This document shows positions 36,224 to 45,300 of a stretch of DNA of 64,000 bases, piece by piece; positions within the stretch are counted from its first letter, which is position 1; each line of letters starts with the position of its first letter. Origin of the DNA: Theocolax elegans. Its lineage: Eukaryota; Arthropoda; Insecta; Hymenoptera; Cerocephalidae. The notes under the pieces are model-generated. The model ran no database searches. It worked only from the letters and a program-made list of their open reading frames with translations, and was not told where the DNA came from. Position numbers and translations under genes: made by a program. Location: positions 80,131,986 to 80,195,985 of the forward strand of contig CM047426.1 in assembly GCA_026168455.1 (NCBI GenBank), given 5' to 3'.

Positions 36224-36445
36224 AATTATATGATTAAACGAACTTACCTGTAAGTGAAGTTCTATCATAATTGTATGAAGCGCCTCTTCCGAAATGATCA
36301 ACATGTAGTCCCTTCACCCTATGCCGAATTGACCACAATTTTTAAAGTTTCAATGTAAAAAGAAAGAAGCAGATGTCTCTCGTGTCGACGTACCGCGCCG
36401 TTTTTCTTTCCGCTTTCATCCCCACTCGCTCGCATGTATCTCATT
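36224..36445 (-). repeat. DIRS inverted terminal repeat, 3' end in sense direction
   Basis: Positions 36300-36445 match the reverse complement of 41181-41326 with no difference I could find. Positions 36269-36299 match less well at GAAGCGCCTCTTCCGAA against TGCGCGCCTCTTCCTC. The outermost 45 bases (36224-36268) have no counterpart in the other repeat, so the ends are asymmetric, as in known DIRS elements. The repeat includes AGGTAAGT on the minus strand at 36249-36242, a strong splice-donor match pointing out of the element. Confidence 0.9.
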
Positions 36446-36519
36446 TTTTAAAGATATACCGTAACATAAGTGTAAGGGGTCCAAAATATTTGTGGACAAG
36501 GGGTTATTGTGGTGGGACT

Positions 36520-36630
36520 GATCATTTCGGAAGAGGCGCTTCATACAATTATGATAGAACTTCACTTACAGGTAAGTTCGTTTAATCATATAATTGTATT
36601 GCGCGCCTCTTCCTCATGATCAACATGTAG
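36520..36630. repeat. DIRS internal complementary region (ICR)
   Basis: Positions 36520-36595 are the inverted complement of the left terminus 36224-36299. Positions 36592-36630 are the inverted complement of the right terminus 41318-41356. The two halves share AATT (36592-36595), so the ICR looks like the sealed junction of the two element ends. In DIRS elements this region templates completion of the ends and circle closure. Just before 36520, GGGACT joins GATCAT directly, whereas the terminal repeat has seven extra bases (ACATGTT) at that point. Confidence 0.92.
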
Positions 36631-36760
36631 ACGTTTAAAGCATACTATGTTACGGTAAACAATAGATAAAGATTATATTTTGTTCATATAATACTTTATA
36701 ATATCGAACTAATACATAACTACGTAAAAATTAAAAACAATAATTTTACATTTTCAAAAC

Positions 36761-37768
36761 TTATGATTTTAAAACTGCTTTCGCAAACGCATTCATACTT
36801 GTATTTAAACGCAAATTATAGAATTTTGTAAATGTACTAGACGTTTTGGTCCAACCCGCGGTTCTACGCACAGTGTCTATATCTAGCCCGTTTCTCTTAG
36901 CAGCTGATGTAGATGCGTGGCGCGTTGAGTGCGCTGTAAATATATTTGTATCGATTCCGCTTTTTTCTAGGACATTTTTCACCCAACGGCTCAAAGTTTG
37001 AGATGTTACCGCTTTAAATGGGCATTTAAAAGAAATAAATAATGATTTTTCATTTTTTCGAATATCTTTGGATTTGTTTATATAACATTGCAATACTGAG
37101 GCAGCACAAATTTTTCTATTTTTACCATAGAAAGGTAGTACTAGAACGGGCTGATTTCTATTGCGCCCCGATGTTTTTATACGATCTGGAATCTTTATTT
37201 CTATAATATTCTGTTTTATTTCAATATTATCTATATTGATTAAGGAGAATGTCTGCATTCTATGTCCGGTAATCAATGCCAATAATGTAATTAACTTAGT
37301 CGTTAATTCTTTAATATTTAAATGTTCATTATCTGGTAAAGAAGAAAAATAATTAAGTACAATTTTCGGGTCCCATGTAGAGTCGTATTTAGGCTTTGCA
37401 GGTCTTAATTTTGACAAACCCTTGAAAAATCTTTTTACACTATCTTCTTGGTTTATATCTGCACCTATGAGTAATGATATCGCGGATCGGTAACAATTTA
37501 TTGTACTATACGCGGAACCGCTCTCATACAATTCTGTCAAAAAAACTAAAATTTTTGGAATGTATTTTTCAAATGGGCTTATCTTTTGTCTGTTGCAAAA
37601 AGACCACCATTTTTTAAAACAAGTCTCATATTGTTTAAGAGAAGATTCGGTCAAAGATGAGAGTGTTATTTTCCAAGATTCTTGCGGAATGTTCTTTAAT
37701 TTAAATGATTGGTAGATAAGATTGCGGCCACCAGGGTAGTTCTGCTCCAGAATCGCTCTATTTCCATG
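36761..37768 (-). CDS. Tyrosine recombinase (integrase) of DIRS element
   Basis: Catalyses site-specific insertion of the circular element DNA in place of a DDE integrase. Counting from a TTG at 37654 (297 residues to the stop at 36761), the catalytic set is visible: Arg132 in a T-G-H-R context, His242-x2-Arg245, Trp268 in the sixth-residue position, and nucleophile Tyr279. The preceding helical part, with a K-x-W-W core, is the core-binding domain. The frame has no ATG start. It is open upstream to about 37768, overlapping the RT ORF by some 70 nt in the -1 frame. A heptamer T-TTA-AAT at 37705-37699 lies in the RT frame directly before its stop, so expression by -1 frameshifting is likely. 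No stops or missing catalytic residues were seen. Confidence 0.9.
   Translation of the reverse strand, partial: HGNRAILEQNYPGGRNLIYQSFKLKNIPQESWKITLSSLTESSLKQYETCFKKWWSFCNRQKISPFEKYIPKILVFLTELYESGSAYSTINCYRSAISLLIGADINQEDSVKRFFKGLSKLRPAKPKYDSTWDPKIVLNYFSSLPDNEHLNIKELTTKLITLLALITGHRMQTFSLINIDNIEIKQNIIEIKIPDRIKTSGRNRNQPVLVLPFYGKNRKICAASVLQCYINKSKDIRKNEKSLFISFKCPFKAVTSQTLSRWVKNVLEKSGIDTNIFTAHSTRHASTSAAKRNGLDIDTVRRTAGWTKTSSTFTKFYNLRLNTSMNAFAKAVLKS
37669..37705 (-). promoter_or_regulatory. Predicted -1 frameshift site, RT to recombinase
   Basis: T-TTA-AAT at 37705-37699 is in the RT frame and is followed at once by the RT stop TAA (37698-37696). A -1 slip gives the recombinase frame, which is open. 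About 9 nt downstream a small bulged hairpin (TTC-CG-CAAG / CTTG-GAA) can form. This is weaker than the Gag-RT site, since the heptamer is less efficient and the stem short. Confidence 0.5.
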
Positions 37769-39780
37769 CTAGAACAGAATAAATTATTTTTTGTTTTAAA
37801 TCTAAATATTTCTGAAGTTACCATGGACTTGAATAAAGGATACCATGGTTGTGATGGCCATTCAGGTACCACCACTATGCCGCAAGCTCTGTCATTTTTT
37901 ATCTTTTCTAGTGATTTTAAAATCAATGAACATGGAGGAAAAGCATAAAAGAAACAATCTTTCCATGAAATTGTAAATGCATCGATTGCAAAAGAATCTG
38001 GATCTCGTTTCCAAGAAACATATTTTAAGCATTTTGCGTTTGATCTACTGGCAAAAAGGTCTATTTCCGGTTCTCCAAATAATTTGCAAATTTGTTTAAA
38101 AATTATATTAGATATTTCAACTTCTATGTGAGGCTTCAATCTTCTTGATTCACTATCTGCCTCTTTATTTAATTTTGATTGAATATATGTTGCAAAAATC
38201 CAGATACCTCTCTGTTCACACCATTGCCATATATTTCTCGCTACTAAATTTAAATTATCATATTGAACTCCACCCATTCTGTTGATATATGATATGGCCG
38301 TGGTATTATCAATGTGTAGTAAAATTTGACAATTTTTTAAGTCTTTAGCAAATACTTTTAAACCGAAGAAGGCAGCTAAGAGCTCCAATTCATTTATGAA
38401 ACAATGATTCTCGTCTATTTTCCAATAACCGTAAACTTTTTCATCGTTACAGAAAGCCCCCCAACCTGTTAAGGAAGCATCAGTAAAAATTTCTAAGTCA
38501 AACGTAGTTTTCCTTATAGGATGTTGCCCATTATTATCCACCGTTTTCCACCAATTTAGTTCACTAATTATTTCACGATTAATGATCATTTTACATTCGT
38601 AATTGTTATGATTCGAATCTAAAGCTAAGTATTTTAATCTTTCGCATATTTTGGTGTGAGCGAACCCATAATTAACTGCTGCACAGCATGAAACCAAATA
38701 CCCTAAAATTCTTGCAAAATCTCTTATTTTTATTTTTTGGTTTAACTTTAATTTTATTATTTGTTTTATGTTAGCTTTTTTACTTTCAGGTAATTCTACT
38801 TGCATATTAATAGAGTTATAAATAAAACCTAAAAAGGTACATTTTTGGCTTGGATTTAAATTACTTTTATTGTAATTTATAATAAAACCCAATTTTTCCA
38901 GTAATGCTATTGTTATATGAACATTTGATAAACACTCTTCGTAATTATTACCAATTAGCATTATGTCGTCTAAATACACAACTGATAAGAAACCTAATTG
39001 TCTTAAATAAGCAACGACCGGTTTTAACAATTTAGTAAAAATAAATGGTGCGACATTTAAACCAAAAGGTAGACATGTAAATTCATAAACGACTCCTTCA
39101 AATTTGAAACGTAAGTATTTGTAATGCGATTTATGAATGGGTACCAAATAATATGCATCTTTTAAATCTAACGATGCCATGAAGCAACCCGCGCTCATCA
39201 ATTTTGTGACAGTTCTTCCATCTTCTAACTTAAAATGTTGTGTTTCTATAACCTTATTTAAAGCTTTTAAATTTAAAATAAGTCTGCACTTTCTATTTGA
39301 CTTTAATGCTAAAAATATATCAGACAGAAATTGACCTTTTACCTTATTAGTACATTTATTAATAGCATTTTTATCTAACAATTCTGAAATAATTTTTGTA
39401 ATTTCTATTTTTTCTACGGTTGACCAATTTCGCTCTGCGGGTTCATGTAGTTGAAATGGTTTTGAATTAAAACGTATTTTATATCCATTTAACCATGAAA
39501 GAATGACTGAATCAAAAGTAATTTTTTCCCATTCTGAGACAAAATCTTTCAGCCGACCTGCTATCGAACTTACCGAATCATTTATTAATGCCTCGGACGT
39601 CGATTCTCGTCGCGCTTCACACGGGAGCTCAATTGTGACTGGTTGTATGGTTTCTTGTAACCTTTCCGTGTTTTCTGCCCGCCCGACGTCCTCTGTTGTT
39701 TTCCTTGATAACGGGGCGGGTTGTAAGAGTTTTTTGATTTTGGCGTGGGTTTGAGAATTTTTAAAGTACTCTCTAGAGCT
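37696..39780 (-). CDS. Reverse transcriptase-RNase H of DIRS element
   Basis: Copies element RNA into DNA. Numbered from the TTG at 39381, the RT palm shows Asp72 in an L-D-L-K-D-A-Y block and Y-L-D-D at 136-139. The thumb follows, then RNase H with Asp301, Glu331, Asp358 and Asp409. The C-terminal part contains the Y-A-F-P-P block and a W-P-x-Q-P-W motif that I know from DIRS RT proteins. The frame is open upstream to 39780 with no ATG, and the added N-terminal part carries the G-Y-x-I-x-F segment usual just before DIRS RTs. It overlaps the Gag ORF by about 195 nt in the -1 frame, and a phased A-AAA-AAC heptamer lies in the overlap. It is therefore probably made as a Gag-RT fusion. No methyltransferase domain was recognised. 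Confidence 0.93.
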   Translation of the reverse strand, partial: SSREYFKNSQTHAKIKKLLQPAPLSRKTTEDVGRAENTERLQETIQPVTIELPCEARRESTSEALINDSVSSIAGRLKDFVSEWEKITFDSVILSWLNGYKIRFNSKPFQLHEPAERNWSTVEKIEITKIISELLDKNAINKCTNKVKGQFLSDIFLALKSNRKCRLILNLKALNKVIETQHFKLEDGRTVTKLMSAGCFMASLDLKDAYYLVPIHKSHYKYLRFKFEGVVYEFTCLPFGLNVAPFIFTKLLKPVVAYLRQLGFLSVVYLDDIMLIGNNYEECLSNVHITIALLEKLGFIINYNKSNLNPSQKCTFLGFIYNSINMQVELPESKKANIKQIIKLKLNQKIKIRDFARILGYLVSCCAAVNYGFAHTKICERLKYLALDSNHNNYECKMIINREIISELNWWKTVDNNGQHPIRKTTFDLEIFTDASLTGWGAFCNDEKVYGYWKIDENHCFINELELLAAFFGLKVFAKDLKNCQILLHIDNTTAISYINRMGGVQYDNLNLVARNIWQWCEQRGIWIFATYIQSKLNKEADSESRRLKPHIEVEISNIIFKQICKLFGEPEIDLFASRSNAKCLKYVSWKRDPDSFAIDAFTISWKDCFFYAFPPCSLILKSLEKIKNDRACGIVVVPEWPSQPWYPLFKSMVTSEIFRFKTKNNLFCSSMEIERFWSRTTLVAAILSTNHLN

Positions 39781-41129
39781 TTAGATGCTTTTATTTTTTC
39801 TTCGAGCTTTTCTCCAAATAAAAACTCGTTAGCATTTGTATCAGTAAGAGTATTTTTGAGGGATGCATTTATGTTTGCTAGAATAAGACTTCGTCGAATC
39901 AGAGTTTCATCGTGTTGAATATCTCCTAGTAACTTTACTGCGTCACTTAAACTCTCTATGACTGGAAGGTCCTCTAAATCTCTGCCACCTTTCAATAAAA
40001 TTGTAAGAGCTTTTCCTATAGCTGCTGAACATGCTGTGATTTTTTGTTGCTTAAGAATTATGCGCGAGTCTCTATTAATGACCGCTTGTTGAACACTAGT
40101 TTTAATCTCTGCATTTAATTTTGGTGGATCACTAAAAAGGCAGTTTTCAGCAGGTGGATATTTTTTTATAAGATTTGATTTTTCATCATTTGGAAGGCCT
40201 TGTTTAATAACCTCTTCCCAGCGTACAACAATTTCGGAATGTAAAGGTGCAGCTAATACTCTGTCTTCATAAAAACGTTTACCTATGACATTAATTAACT
40301 CTTCGCTCAAAGGAGTTTCATCAAGCTCTTTATTATTATCCGACGTAGCTTGCAGTGGAGGTTCTATCCTTTTTCCGTTCGTTACGTCTCTTAACGGCGA
40401 TCTTGGACTTCTGTTAGTGTTACGAGAAGGTGTACTCTCACGGCTAATGCCTATAACAGACCGAACAAAAAGAACGGGGAATTGATAAATAATTGTTCAA
40501 CTCTGCACATTTTTCATATACATATATATCTATATACATATATGCACATCACTTAGATTTTAACGTGCGTTTGAGTGTTTCACACAAAAAATTTATAAGG
40601 TTTGAGACATTTTGTTGTATATTTTTCAGAGTTTATATAACGCAATAAGAATCTTTGCTATGAATAAAGGTTAGAGCCGTATTATTCTGTTCGTAACACA
40701 CTATACACGTATAGGTTAGAGCCATATACGCATAAGAAAACAAGATCGTCTTTTTTTTTTTTTTTTTTTTTTATACATATACAGGTTAGAGCCAAATATA
40801 CAATGAAAATTTGTTCGTGTTTCATACACTTTTGTGCCGGTTAGAGCCAAGCACAAGTTATTTCGATTATTGCGTATAGTTAAAATCATAGTTATAATAT
40901 TCATCAACTTACTCGAATTCGAGTGTGATCCTGAATCTGATGATGAGATAGTAGTCGGATCCGAAGAATCGGAATAGCTATCCTTGCGTTGTCTCGAATG
41001 CCTTCGATGTTTTTCCTTTCTTGAATGTTTACGCTTGTATTTCTTAAACTTTCGCTTAAAGCGTTTCAAAAGTCTATGCGATGAATCCTCTTCAGATGAT
41101 GTATATTCACGTTTTCGCTTATGACCCAT
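39585..41129 (-). CDS. Gag-like ORF1 of DIRS element, two exons
   Basis: Exon 1 is 41129-40913. It starts at an ATG in good context (GAAAAATGGG) and encodes about 72 residues dominated by Lys/Arg and His, then Ser/Asp, like an RS domain. Exon 2 is 40450-39585. The 462-nt intron has donor GA|GTAAGTTG and acceptor TCTGTTATAG|GC behind a pyrimidine tract. It is phase 1 and joins the two frames exactly (217 + 866 nt, 360 residues). Exon 2 has a helical middle part with a K-K-Y-P-x-x-E-N-C block seen in DIRS ORF1 proteins, and a basic C-terminus rich in Arg, Gln and Gly that could bind RNA. The unspliced message would stop at 40716, giving a 137-residue truncated product. Confidence 0.85.
39678..39735 (-). 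promoter_or_regulatory. Predicted -1 frameshift site, Gag to RT
   Basis: On the minus strand, A-AAA-AAC at 39735-39729 is in the Gag frame as required (AAA begins at 39734, Gag codon phase). An 8-nt spacer (39728-39721) is followed by CCCGCCC (39720-39714), a 29-nt loop and GGGCGGG (39684-39678), a perfect 7-bp GC stem. A -1 slip here enters the open RT frame. Heptamer, spacer length and stem all match the standard retroviral design. Confidence 0.75.
40451..40912 (-). other. Spliceosomal intron in DIRS ORF1
   Basis: A GT-AG intron of 462 nt with stop codons in all continuing frames, a 22-nt A run on the sense strand (40772-40751) and the four-copy hairpin motif. It links an ATG-led basic exon to the otherwise ATG-less Gag frame. 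The splice join is inferred from consensus sites and frame continuity. Confidence 0.75.
40584..40856 (-). repeat. Intronic array of four (plus one degenerate) 10-mer stem-loops
   Basis: The 10-mer GGCTCTAACC (sense, minus strand) occurs at 40848-40839, 40793-40784, 40723-40714 and 40678-40669. Each copy is framed by different complementary arms: TTGTGC/GCACAA, TATA/TATA, CGTATA/TATACG and GAATAA/TTATTC. A fifth, degenerate copy at 40608-40599 has arms ACAAAA/TTTTGT. Conserved loop with changing stems suggests RNA structure rather than simple duplication. Confidence 0.75.
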
Positions 41130-41180
41130 TTTTCAGTTTTAATTTTTCATCGATGTGGTTCTGTCGGCACAAAGCAAAAG

Positions 41181-41356
41181 AATGAGATACATGCGAGCGA
41201 GTGGGGATGAAAGCGGAAAGAAAAACGGCGCGGTACGTCGACACGAGAGACATCTGCTTCTTTCTTTTTACATTGAAACTTTAAAAATTGTGGTCAATTC
41301 GGCATAGGGTGAAGGGACTACATGTTGATCATGAGGAAGAGGCGCGCAATACAATT
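41181..41356 (-). repeat. DIRS inverted terminal repeat, 5' end in sense direction
   Basis: The reverse complement of 36269-36445, ending at 41356 with CAATACAATT. It probably contains the promoter, since the Gag ATG lies only about 50 nt inside it (41129). The outer 39 nt (41318-41356) are matched by the ICR. Confidence 0.9.
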
Positions 41357-42706
41357 ATTATTACATTATTATATTGTAAATAATATTTTGCTGATAATGT
41401 ACTATATACATCCGTAATTGTTTATAGATATATACCTGAAGTTTCATTTCAAAATAACATTGAAAAAAAGAAAAATTTTTAAACACAATTTCTTTTGTTA
41501 GGTAGTCAATCATTTCATTACATCTGCGTCTATAGAATTGCTTTCCAACTCAATAAAGAATTGATTCAACCATTTACCGATTACTTCCCTCAAGTTATAT
41601 TGATATATATTTATAATATAGATTTATAAAGTCACGAGAAAAGTTCTAACAAAATTGACAAGTATAAATTTTATTACAAATTATGAAGAAGATACTTTTT
41701 TCTTCCTTATGTTTTTCATAAAAAGTAACAGCAGAGACAATATTGTGAATAAATATTACAATAACTTAGATTTCACTACGGATTACGTATCTGTAATGCA
41801 TAAAACGTTGAACGTCAGTTTTTATTACAGTTATTAAATAATATTTTTGAGTTATTTACAGTAGTTATTGCCGTATTTTCGGATGTAAAATGGTTTTTAA
41901 TAAATTATAAATCCCTAGCTTTTCTGCTTAGTCGTTTAACATTAAATTAAAATAAATGTAAAAAATACAGTGCTTAAACGATTAACCATAAGGACATTTT
42001 AAAATATTAAGTTATTACATACTTTATGATAGAATTGAACATTAGCAGATTAAATATTTTGTACCCAGTAGCGAAATAAAGAGGAACCACAACAAAATCG
42101 AGTTCGTTCGCGACTCTAAGTATACAAGCACTAAACGCGACAATCACCGTGAATTCTCATTTGATTCGGAATCTGCGACTAAAAATTATTATCGAATTAT
42201 CCCATTACATAGTCGGAGATTCCCAATCTCTGCTTAGCACCGCGGTGACCCGATGGTCACTTATCAGTCGGTGAACGCTAATCGCGACCGTGCCGCGAAT
42301 GCATCGCGCGCCAGCCCGTACAAACGGGTATCGATCACGGCGATTATAATTGCCTCGAATTTGAATACACGCACCGGGGAGTTTCTGCATACCGGGAGGC
42401 GCATCGTCGCGCCCCGGAAACCAGAGGAAACTGCCTTCACGCTCCATTAAATCCTGTGCCATCCTCGACTATTCACGTTTCAATATACAACCTCGTTCAT
42501 CAATTATTTAGAGATATCTGATTCTTCTCTTTTTTCGGAACGATCTGCTCGACAACAATGTAAATGATTCCAACAATATATTTCACTACAATATACTTAT
42601 GTTCAACTTTTTGAAGTAAACAAATATTTTTACCACGCCTAATTATTGTACTGTACTTATTATAAATTTCCATAATTTAAATTATCATTCTGCAATTCAA
42701 TTAGCA
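41357..42706. other. Non-coding DNA
   Basis: AT-rich flank of the DIRS insertion, with a CpG-rich island at about 42080-42480 that has short frames on both strands and no recognisable product. Confidence 0.5.
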
Positions 42707-43096: not shown

Positions 43097-43871
43097 TAGT
43101 AATCATTGGCGAAGAGAGTAGCTCTATGTTTTTGAATAAATTATAATTATTATTTGCCGAAGATTCAACAAAAATCCTGTGTTGTACTCACGCTGTACAA
43201 TTATAATCTCATTTCACTCGTGTCTTTATACAAATGTATATATACTTATTTATTTATTATTTCATTAAATTTTAATAAAAAAATATATTTGAGTAGTCGG
43301 CACAAATAATTAAGTAGATTAATTGAAATTGACTTTTCCAAGCCTTTAGCGGGTTCGCGAATGAAGACCTAAGTTTTGTTTCATTAAAGTTACTGTTAAC
43401 ACGTAAACTTTGATTTATTAGTATTAATCGATGTCGATTAATCCAAAAATTGTTCTAATTTTTATATTAAAAACAAAAATGTATTACTTGTTTGCGCTGA
43501 AGATTGTATAACTTATACCTATAGTTATTACGGATCAGATTAATTAATTTTAAATTTATTAATAATACTTAATAGCAAGAATATCCGGCTCCTACCGTCG
43601 TTCAGATTTAATGATTTATAAATGCTCAGATTTGGAAAAAAAATAATAATAATAATATTGTGAAATTACACATTATACACGCAATGAATCTTGAGTTTAT
43701 ATGCTATGTATATAATATAATACGTGTGTATATTAAAATTGAGTGGCACGAGGCCGTTGTCACACCGTTTTGTTTTCATATTGCGTTGTCGAGTCGAGTA
43801 TGATAAACAATTACAAAAGAAATCTTTTATTTGAAAGAATAGTGTTGTGTAGAATAAATTAAATATATATA
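43097..43871. other. Non-coding AT-rich DNA
   Basis: Nothing recognised beyond TA-rich tracts next to the foldback element. Confidence 0.5.
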
Positions 43872-44863
43872 GGATATCCCACGTGAAGTGGTCCGATCAA
43901 AATTTTTAAATACACCAAATTTTGGGTATACATTGCAAATGTTTTTCAGAATACAGAAAACAAAATTTTTAGTACTGCAATCTATTTGCTCAAAAGTTAT
44001 TCTAACCTCAAAAAGTGAATTTTTCCAAGTGTTTTGCAACACTAGCTGGGTTTACCGCTATTTAACTCAAAATCTATCAACTTTTACTATAGAACATTAT
44101 ATGTAACATTCGTTGCTAATTATGTCTGTAATTTATTCTTCTGTGGGTTAGAATTTCTAATCTCAAGGTCAATGTTACATATCAATATTCAACTTAAATA
44201 AAGTGTAAGTACGCCACAATTGATTTTTTTATCCAAAAGTCTAAAAAAAGCTTGAAGCAATACCTTTCAAATGGTCTGTAGCACTTGTATGGCCTTCAAT
44301 TCTGTAAAAAGTTATGATAATTTAAAGAAACACGCAATTTTTTAAAAAAATTTAAATGGGAATTACCATGTTAATTTTTGTGAATTTTATGTCTTTTTTT
44401 AAATTATCATAACTTTTTACTGAATTGAAGACCCCAAAAATGCTACAGACCATTTGAAAGGTATTGCTTCAAGCTTTTTTTTTTAGACATTTTTGATAAA
44501 AAAATCAATTGTGGCGCACTTACACTATTTTTAAGTTGAATATTGACATGTAGTTTATGTAACATTAACCTTGAGATTAGAAATTCTAACCCAGAAGGAT
44601 AAATTCTAGACACAGTTAGCAACGAATGTTATATATAATGTTTTATAGTAAAAGTTGAGAGATTTTGAGTTAAATAGCGGTAAACCCAGCTGGTGTTGAA
44701 AAAAACTAGAAAAAATTCACTTTTTGAGGTTAGAATAACTTTTGAGCAAATAGATTCCAGTACCTAAAAATTTTTTTCTGTATTCTGAAAAACATTTGCA
44801 ATGTGTACCCAAAATTTAGTGCATTTTAAAATTTTGATCGGACCACTTCACGTGGAATACCCC
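43872..44863. mobile_element. Foldback element, ~1 kb
   Basis: Two inverted arms of about 450 bp (43872-~44325 and ~44399-44863) with a loop of about 75 bp. The ends read GG(A/G)TAT(C/T)CCACGTGAAGTGG and the element sits in a TA-rich tract. The ORF at 43888-44106 on plus and its mirror frames elsewhere are simply translations of the arms. The arms differ at scattered positions, so the element is not brand new. A second, half copy lies at 62937-63455. No transposase is present. Confidence 0.88.
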
Positions 44864-45300
44864 ATATATATATATTTATATGCGTATTTCTTGAGCGACT
44901 TATTTGAGTGCTACGAATTCCATTGCGGAAAGCAAACTCCGTGGGTAGTCCACAAATGTTTAATGTACGCTGTAGCCTGGCTAAAATGATTGAGAGAATA
45001 GAAGACTAAAAGAATGTCAGTCGCGTCATTATCATCGGTATGAGCGGATATAATAAATCGGTTGACATCGTGTTGTAAGAGTTGCAACGATTGACACTAC
45101 TTCAAAGCAAGATTGCCTGAACAATGGTCGTAAAAAATCTAAAAAAGAAGAAGGTGACTGCAACGGACAAGACGCAATTAAAAACTGCGTCAATCATCAA
45201 AAGCCAGGGTTTGGATAAATGAATCCTGAAAATTAGGAGTGGTTTAACGATTGTGTTTAAACTTGTTGAAGGACAAACGTTTGCGGAAATTGCACAGGTC
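44864..45300 (+). other. Flank and possible LINE ORF1 remnant
   Basis: From 45123 an ATG-led Lys-rich stretch (to a TGA near 45222), followed by a frame with Gly-Gln-Thr-Phe-Ala-Glu, could be a decayed ORF1 piece of the R1-like element that follows. Too degraded to be sure. Confidence 0.25.

Follow-up and report, generated by a model that had tools for sequence, protein, structure and literature searches.

A probable programmed -1 frameshift signal between Gag and reverse transcriptase in a DIRS1-like element of Theocolax elegans

A DIRS1-like retrotransposon in the 64,000-nucleotide stretch of Theocolax elegans DNA analysed here (the window) very probably makes its reverse transcriptase (RT) as a Gag-RT fusion, by programmed -1 ribosomal frameshifting. 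Ribosomes on the (spliced) Gag message would reach the heptamer A AAA AAC with a 7-bp GC hairpin at the mRNA entrance, and in a minority of passages the tRNAs in the P and A sites (Lys, Asn) would slip back by one base and pair again on AAA AAA. Slipped ribosomes would continue in the RT frame to give Gag-linker-RT-RNase H-methyltransferase, while those that do not slip would terminate 47 codons on, as Gag. The sequence-only reading of this DNA had proposed such a frameshift, and the proposal is supported by the phase, the spacer, the stem and the lack of an early ATG in the RT frame, by the lack of a good splice acceptor into RT and a codon choice that favours the hairpin, and by a footprint of heptamer, fixed spacing and P-x-R in 129 Gag tails. 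From this evidence we infer that ribosomes slip, that they do so in a minority of passages and that relatives carry the signal in their DNA.

The element and the layout of the signal

The element is complete, 5.1 kb long, and has the window's minus strand as its sense strand. A tblastn search (E <= 1e-3) found no second DIRS copy in the window. Its main features are as follows.

36224-41358, minus (sense): whole DIRS1-like element, delimited by inverted repeats, internal complementary region and ORFs
41177-41332, unstranded: left inverted terminal repeat (ITR) arm, 156 nt, on the 5' side of the sense strand; 99% complementarity with 36294-36449
36294-36449, unstranded: right ITR arm, complementary to the left arm
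36519-36630, unstranded: internal complementary region, matching both element ends
40913-41129, minus: Gag exon 1, predicted, with ATG at 41129
40451-40912, minus: Gag intron, predicted, 462 nt, CGA/GTAAGT ... GTTATAG/GC
39585-40450, minus: Gag exon 2, with stop codon
37696-39780, minus: RT-RNase H-methyltransferase ORF, -1 relative to Gag, first Met at residue 195
36761-37768, minus: tyrosine recombinase (YR) ORF, first Met at residue 171

The combination of ITRs with an internal complementary region matching both ends is that of DIRS1-like elements. Positions 36519-36595 of this region pair with the right end at 36224-36300 (100%) and positions 36590-36630 with the left end at 41318-41358 (100%), 36590-36595 being common to both halves. 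In the sense direction the ORFs run from Gag through RT-RNase H-methyltransferase to YR, and all three are open. The RT domain was identified by Pfam PF00078 (78.8 bits, E 6e-22), which is likewise found in the RT relatives, and the recombinase by PF00589 (56.7 bits, E 3.2e-15). Matches to RNase H (PF17917, E 0.011) and to a Dam-like methyltransferase (PF05869, E 0.015) fall below Pfam's cut-off; PF05869 is present in many RT relatives among the matches listed. No Pfam match to a protease or a DDE integrase was found in the pol ORF at E <= 0.1.

Spliced Gag is predicted to comprise 360 amino acids. We place an intron here because an SR-rich reading frame runs unbroken across the exon junction, and the element seems to use splicing for Gag. 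An intron in a DIRS element would be kept through reverse transcription only if the genomic RNA stays unspliced. The label Gag is by position only: a Pfam search returned nothing above cut-off, and an AlphaFold model of modest confidence (pLDDT 66.8) gave no match in the PDB with E <= 0.001. The last helix of that model spans residues 217-234, and the slip site falls after it, in a region of low confidence.

The predicted Gag intron also contains four copies of a 10-mer that has no other exact copy in the window.

40669-40678, 40714-40723, 40784-40793 and 40839-40848, minus: copies of GGCTCTAACC

Each copy forms the tip of a small predicted hairpin, and the stem sequences differ. The repeats could be a Gag-binding or packaging signal confined to unspliced RNA; alternatively, they could be branch-point-like CTAAC repeats.

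The predicted frameshift signal lies where the Gag and RT ORFs overlap.

39585-39780, minus: Gag/RT overlap, 196 nt, from ORF positions
39729-39735, minus: slippery heptamer A AAA AAC, in Gag phase
39721-39728, minus: spacer, 8 nt
39714-39720, minus: 5' arm of the stem, CCCGCCC
39685-39713, minus: loop, 29 nt, with a short inner helix predicted
39678-39684, minus: 3' arm of the stem, GGGCGGG

Each part of the signal that the sequence-only reading had described was found in place. Read along the sense strand, the heptamer (39735-39729) is split tcA.AAA.AAC by the Gag frame and has the form X XXY YYZ in the zero phase. It is followed by a spacer of 8 nt (39728-39721), within the usual range of about 5-9 nt, and by a perfect 7-bp GC stem (39720-39714 with 39684-39678) enclosing a 29-nt loop. 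All of this falls inside the overlap, as Gag ends at 39585 and RT opens at 39780. The ORF positions also bear out that the RT frame is -1 and open from 39780; it has no ATG before residue 195, and that first Met lies inside the RT domain, so the downstream -1 ORF has no usable start. The predicted 43-nt hairpin has a stability of -17.3 kcal/mol. A slip at the heptamer would lead through a linker of about 58 residues to the conserved AGRL at the start of the RT region.

Other candidate components were considered as well. A second in-phase heptamer, T TTA AAA, occurs at 39765-39759, and its Leu-Lys is not conserved as a pair in the Gag alignment (A2). We rejected an H-type pseudoknot as stimulator: the best pairing between the loop and downstream sequence is 4 bp, and this was equalled in 993 of 1,000 shuffles.

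The signal against chance and its footprint in relatives

Some in-phase X XXY YYZ was present in 41% of overlaps with shuffled Gag codons, and 8.6% of such controls had a heptamer from among the four shiftiest; against this background the heptamer by itself is not remarkable. The heptamer together with any 6-bp stem occurred in 2.1% of codon shuffles, and together with a 7-bp stem (at least 6 GC, 5-9 nt spacer) in none of 20,000. The 43-nt hairpin is the most stable among 5,092 same-size windows in the element, and larger windows rank 8 of 5,084 (51 nt) and 21 of 5,075 (60 nt); a 50-nt window, which ends one base short of the stem, ranks 40 of 5,085. Dinucleotide shuffles were equally stable in 8 of 1,000 cases at 51 nt, 52 of 1,000 at 69 nt and 16 of 1,000 at 89 nt, and the fold of a 136-nt region was not unusual (z -1.05).

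The most telling test within this copy is the synonymous one, in which the Gag peptide was fixed and codons were drawn at the element's own frequencies. Among 40,000 such versions an equally stable fold arose in 29, the heptamer was kept in 2,592 and both occurred in 2. The stem is built from CCG, CCC, GGC and GGG, which the element uses less often than its other Pro and Gly codons. A chance origin of the signal is unlikely.

Gag relatives (P0121-P0249, n = 129) were taken from 25 of 25 matches and the best 120 of 186. With the window and the Gag portion of P0042 the total came to 131 rows, and leaving out P0142 and P0145, which end before the slip site, gave the 129-row set; the tails of P0196, P0233 and P0203 were read by hand. 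Named relatives include Trichogramma, Eretmocerus and Temnothorax, with Neodiprion also among the matches listed; by species and locus they comprise Trichogramma kaykai (TKK_0007801), Eretmocerus hayati (QAD02_022911), Neodiprion virginianus (LOC124297748), Temnothorax longispinosus and the Pararge aegeria protein of LOC120623526. A protein footprint of the signal is kept in both wasp and moth relatives. The Asn encoded at the slip site, N242, is present in all 129 rows (the window and 128 relatives among the matches listed); six positions in the exon-2 Gag alignment have values that round to 1.00, N242 being the sole one in the tail. Residue 241 is Gly in 95 rows, Lys in 26, Glu in 7 and Val in 1, again among the matches listed. 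Lys-Asn fits A AAA AAC and Gly-Asn fits G GGA AAC. In the 129 rows, drawn from the matches listed, Lys is preceded by Ser, Pro or Gln only, and Gly by Gln, Ser, Pro, Arg or Leu only. Three residues separate the Asn from a P-x-R (P246 in 127 of 129 rows and R248 in 124, among the matches listed), at the position of the stem's 5' arm, followed by Gly-Gly or a variant. The tail ahead of the motif varies, with 28-56 residues separating it from the last conserved anchor.

At the protein level the heptamer footprint fits 121 of 129 Gags among the matches listed. The other eight rows, seven with Gln-Glu-Asn and one with Gln-Val-Asn (among the matches listed), allow no standard heptamer; they are P0186, P0193, P0195, P0196, P0197, P0202, P0218 and P0219. 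By our reasoning G GAA AAC after CAG would call for a single G-U pair in the P site. The argument from the preceding residue is weak because the codon ending it depends on is available to most tail residues: residues without an A- or G-ending codon make up about 13-14% of the tails (background, 112 rows), and before Gly elsewhere in the tails they number 8 of 501 (112 rows).

On a tree of the Gag core, rooted at the midpoint and read with the warning that long branches meet there, 25 of the Lys rows fall to one side of a single branch (100/100), and one further Lys row, P0144, is nested among Gly rows and adjoins P0150. This placement indicates that the letter changed within the slippery set at least twice, and on the sequences at hand one change appears old and one recent. 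The same pattern means that the 129 rows represent far fewer than 129 independent cases. This tree requires three changes for Glu at residue 241, and well-supported branches force two of these.

In moths the motif lies within a longer conserved stretch, GNWxGPPRY..RGGRGG, whose Trp is found in 103 of 129 rows among the matches listed, and most wasp-type Gags lack the Trp and RGG but keep the N, P and R. The conserved tail, which is RGG-like in moths, could also have a function in the Gag protein itself. One wasp subgroup has Pro-Ser-Arg or Pro-Phe-Arg with Ser-Gly or Asn-Gly (for example PSR...SNGQ), and this replacement of the second Pro and its Gly partner should weaken or shorten the stem as drawn. 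Back-translated relatives had a mean of 11.7 GC-capable pairs, against 9.5 in shuffled order, and 106 of 127 lay above their own mean. This potential for a stem is only suggestive, as third positions are not given by proteins and the rows are related.

Among the matches listed, 125 of 128 Gags (the window and relatives, with P0042 left out) end no more than 60 residues after the site; Gag and RT are therefore separate readings in the relatives too. Two beetle gene models from Callosobruchus chinensis, P0050 and P0057, run from Gag into RT and lack the KN...PxR motif; they may be single-ORF elements with an in-frame Gag-RT or models with invented introns. Together with P0042 these are the only models longer than 900 amino acids in the best 120 RT matches listed. 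A scan of viral contigs (single RT, RT alignment) and genome contigs found no DNA of relatives.

Other routes to RT and production of the recombinase

An alternatively spliced RT message, in which exon 1 (ATG 41129) or another leader is joined to an acceptor in the RT frame, would leave the heptamer and stem incidental. The predicted Gag intron at 40451-40912 does suggest that splicing occurs in the element. However, the best acceptor-like site between 39780 and 39550 comes 21st of 289 AGs on a crude score, and splicing it to the exon 1 donor gives the Gag frame, while the best acceptor giving the RT frame (from the exon 1 donor only) ranks 102 of 289. Such splicing would also fail to account for the Asn shared by all 129 Gags, for its fixed spacing or for the codon choice of the hairpin, and we consider this route very unlikely. 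It appears similarly improbable that the tail G/K-N-xxx-P-x-R...GG is a Gag RNA-binding motif, with RT made through an internal non-AUG start or the like and the hairpin a by-product of Pro-Pro and Gly-Gly. The moth sequence GNWxGPPRY..RGGRGG, with its Trp in 103 of 129 rows among the matches listed, looks protein-related, and because Pro-Pro-Arg codons when reverse-complemented spell Arg-Gly-Gly, the pairing is partly forced. Against this, with the amino acids unchanged just 29 of 40,000 synonymous recodings reached equal stability, the N, P and R of most wasp-type Gags occur with neither Trp nor RGG, and the RT frame has no Met before residue 195.

It is hardly credible that this copy acquired its -1 offset by mutation and resembles a frameshift signal by accident. 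The element is a single copy and one DNA sequence, which leaves room for such an explanation, but its three ORFs are open, its ITR arms are 99% complementary, 125 of 128 Gags among the matches listed end within 60 residues of the site, and the codon-shuffle and synonymous estimates of chance speak against it. Re-initiation after the Gag stop was rejected, since the ATG just downstream is not in the RT frame. Programmed -1 frameshifting into RT is thus the explanation we favour. If it is correct, the true RT product would be missing from gene models that terminate at the Gag stop or connect Gag with RT through an intron.

A pair of putative splice sites could join the RT frame to the YR frame.

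39572-39573, minus: putative splice donor TCG/GTAAGT, phase 0 in the RT frame
37769-37770, minus: putative splice acceptor TTCTGTTCTAG/CAT, phase 0 in the YR frame

The donor at 39573 lies just past the Gag stop. The acceptor ranks 10 of 289 AGs by the crude score, and the YR frame, which has no Met before residue 171, opens exactly behind it, at 37768. The 39573-37768 junction reads in frame; joining the exon 1 donor (40912, phase 1) to the same acceptor gives a stop after three codons. This arrangement suggests that YR may be made by splicing. A more specific model, which we regard as doubtful, is that one slip serves two enzymes: the 39573-37768 splice would remove RT, and the same -1 slip would then give Gag-YR. 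A message keeping pol would yield Gag-RT and the spliced message Gag-YR, and intron choice and frameshift together would, if this is true, set the ratio of Gag to RT to recombinase. Val-Ser is found at the donor position in 15 of 31 readable rows (window included, of 121), with P0050, which is mis-anchored, counted among the rows lacking it. Inspected by eye, the gene models P0016 and P0042 likewise have RT joined to YR close to this position.

The end of RT reads T TTA AAT TAA (37705-37696, minus), which places a heptamer in RT phase beside the stop, with YR in -1. A frameshift from RT into YR is not favoured: both the C-terminus of RT and the N-terminus of YR look conserved in the overlap when inspected by eye, and five relatives examined lack Leu-Asn at the RT end.

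Relation to known frameshifting systems

Frameshifting of the -1 type between gag and pol in retroviruses and LTR retrotransposons uses X XXY YYZ followed by a spacer and a stem or pseudoknot, according to the available text of PMC5009743, and the sequence-only reading's comparison of the present layout with that of retroviruses and LTR elements agrees with this account. The resemblance extends to the type of heptamer, its phase, the 8-nt spacer, the downstream structure, the overlap and a startless pol in -1. In contrast to retroviral and LTR pol, the pol of this element is read as RT with putative RNase H and methyltransferase-like regions, with no Pfam match to protease or DDE integrase at E <= 0.1, and whereas the retroviral and LTR stimulators are stems or pseudoknots, the stimulator predicted here looks like a plain hairpin. 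A 2003 survey, as quoted in the available text of PMC5009743, found pol in -1 in 28 of 51 animal LTR retrotransposons. The element would share with these its solution to the problem of the Gag/Pol ratio, although they form an order separate from the tyrosine-recombinase elements.

In the accessible portions of PMC3266345 and PMC2685390, DIRS1-like retrotransposons have Gag, RT-RH-MT and YR ORFs, ITRs and an internal complementary region, an organisation that this element resembles, with its RNase H and methyltransferase putative, and the average length of 5160 bp given in PMC3266345 compares with 5.1 kb for this element. The same portions describe an overlap of Pol with YR; they contain no Gag/Pol frameshift, 'frameshift' in PMC3266345 denoting a mutation, and neither 'intron' nor 'splic' appears anywhere in them. 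Frameshifting has been suggested for Dictyostelium discoideum DIRS-1, where a figure legend in the available text of PMC5006619 indicates a +1 shift from RT/RNase H to the recombinase; the legend marks it 'not determined experimentally', and that text names no slippery site or stem. Both elements are tyrosine-recombinase retrotransposons with overlapping ORFs for which frameshifting is proposed, but the signal described here is -1 and leads from Gag to RT, unlike the +1 shift between RT/RNase H and recombinase. The earlier statement that DIRS elements have no well-established frameshift mechanism therefore stands for the literature searched, as far as its available text goes, and has to be qualified by this +1 suggestion.

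No proposal of a Gag-RT frameshift for DIRS elements was found in the available text of the freely accessible papers searched, which included PMC3266345, PMC3783388, PMC6681497, PMC9004415, PMC8226300 and PMC3587641 as well as PMC8547959, PMC5006619, PMC1965478, PMC5633606, PMC2685390 and PMC1224870. Within the same body of text there is no description of how RT is proportioned to Gag in tyrosine-recombinase retrotransposons. On the reading we favour, the element is a case of an old mechanism in what is, for the papers searched, a new place, gag-pol-type frameshifting in a DIRS element. If the signal is kept across insect DIRS elements, it would extend gag-pol frameshifting to another order of retroelements, and the pattern in the relatives, if true, would mean that two of the shiftiest heptamers have been swapped for one another.

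Elsewhere in the window, a long inverted repeat spans 43857-44877 with its centre near 44362, its arm pieces being 38-186 nt long and 86-97% complementary. From this arrangement it looks like a non-autonomous foldback element.
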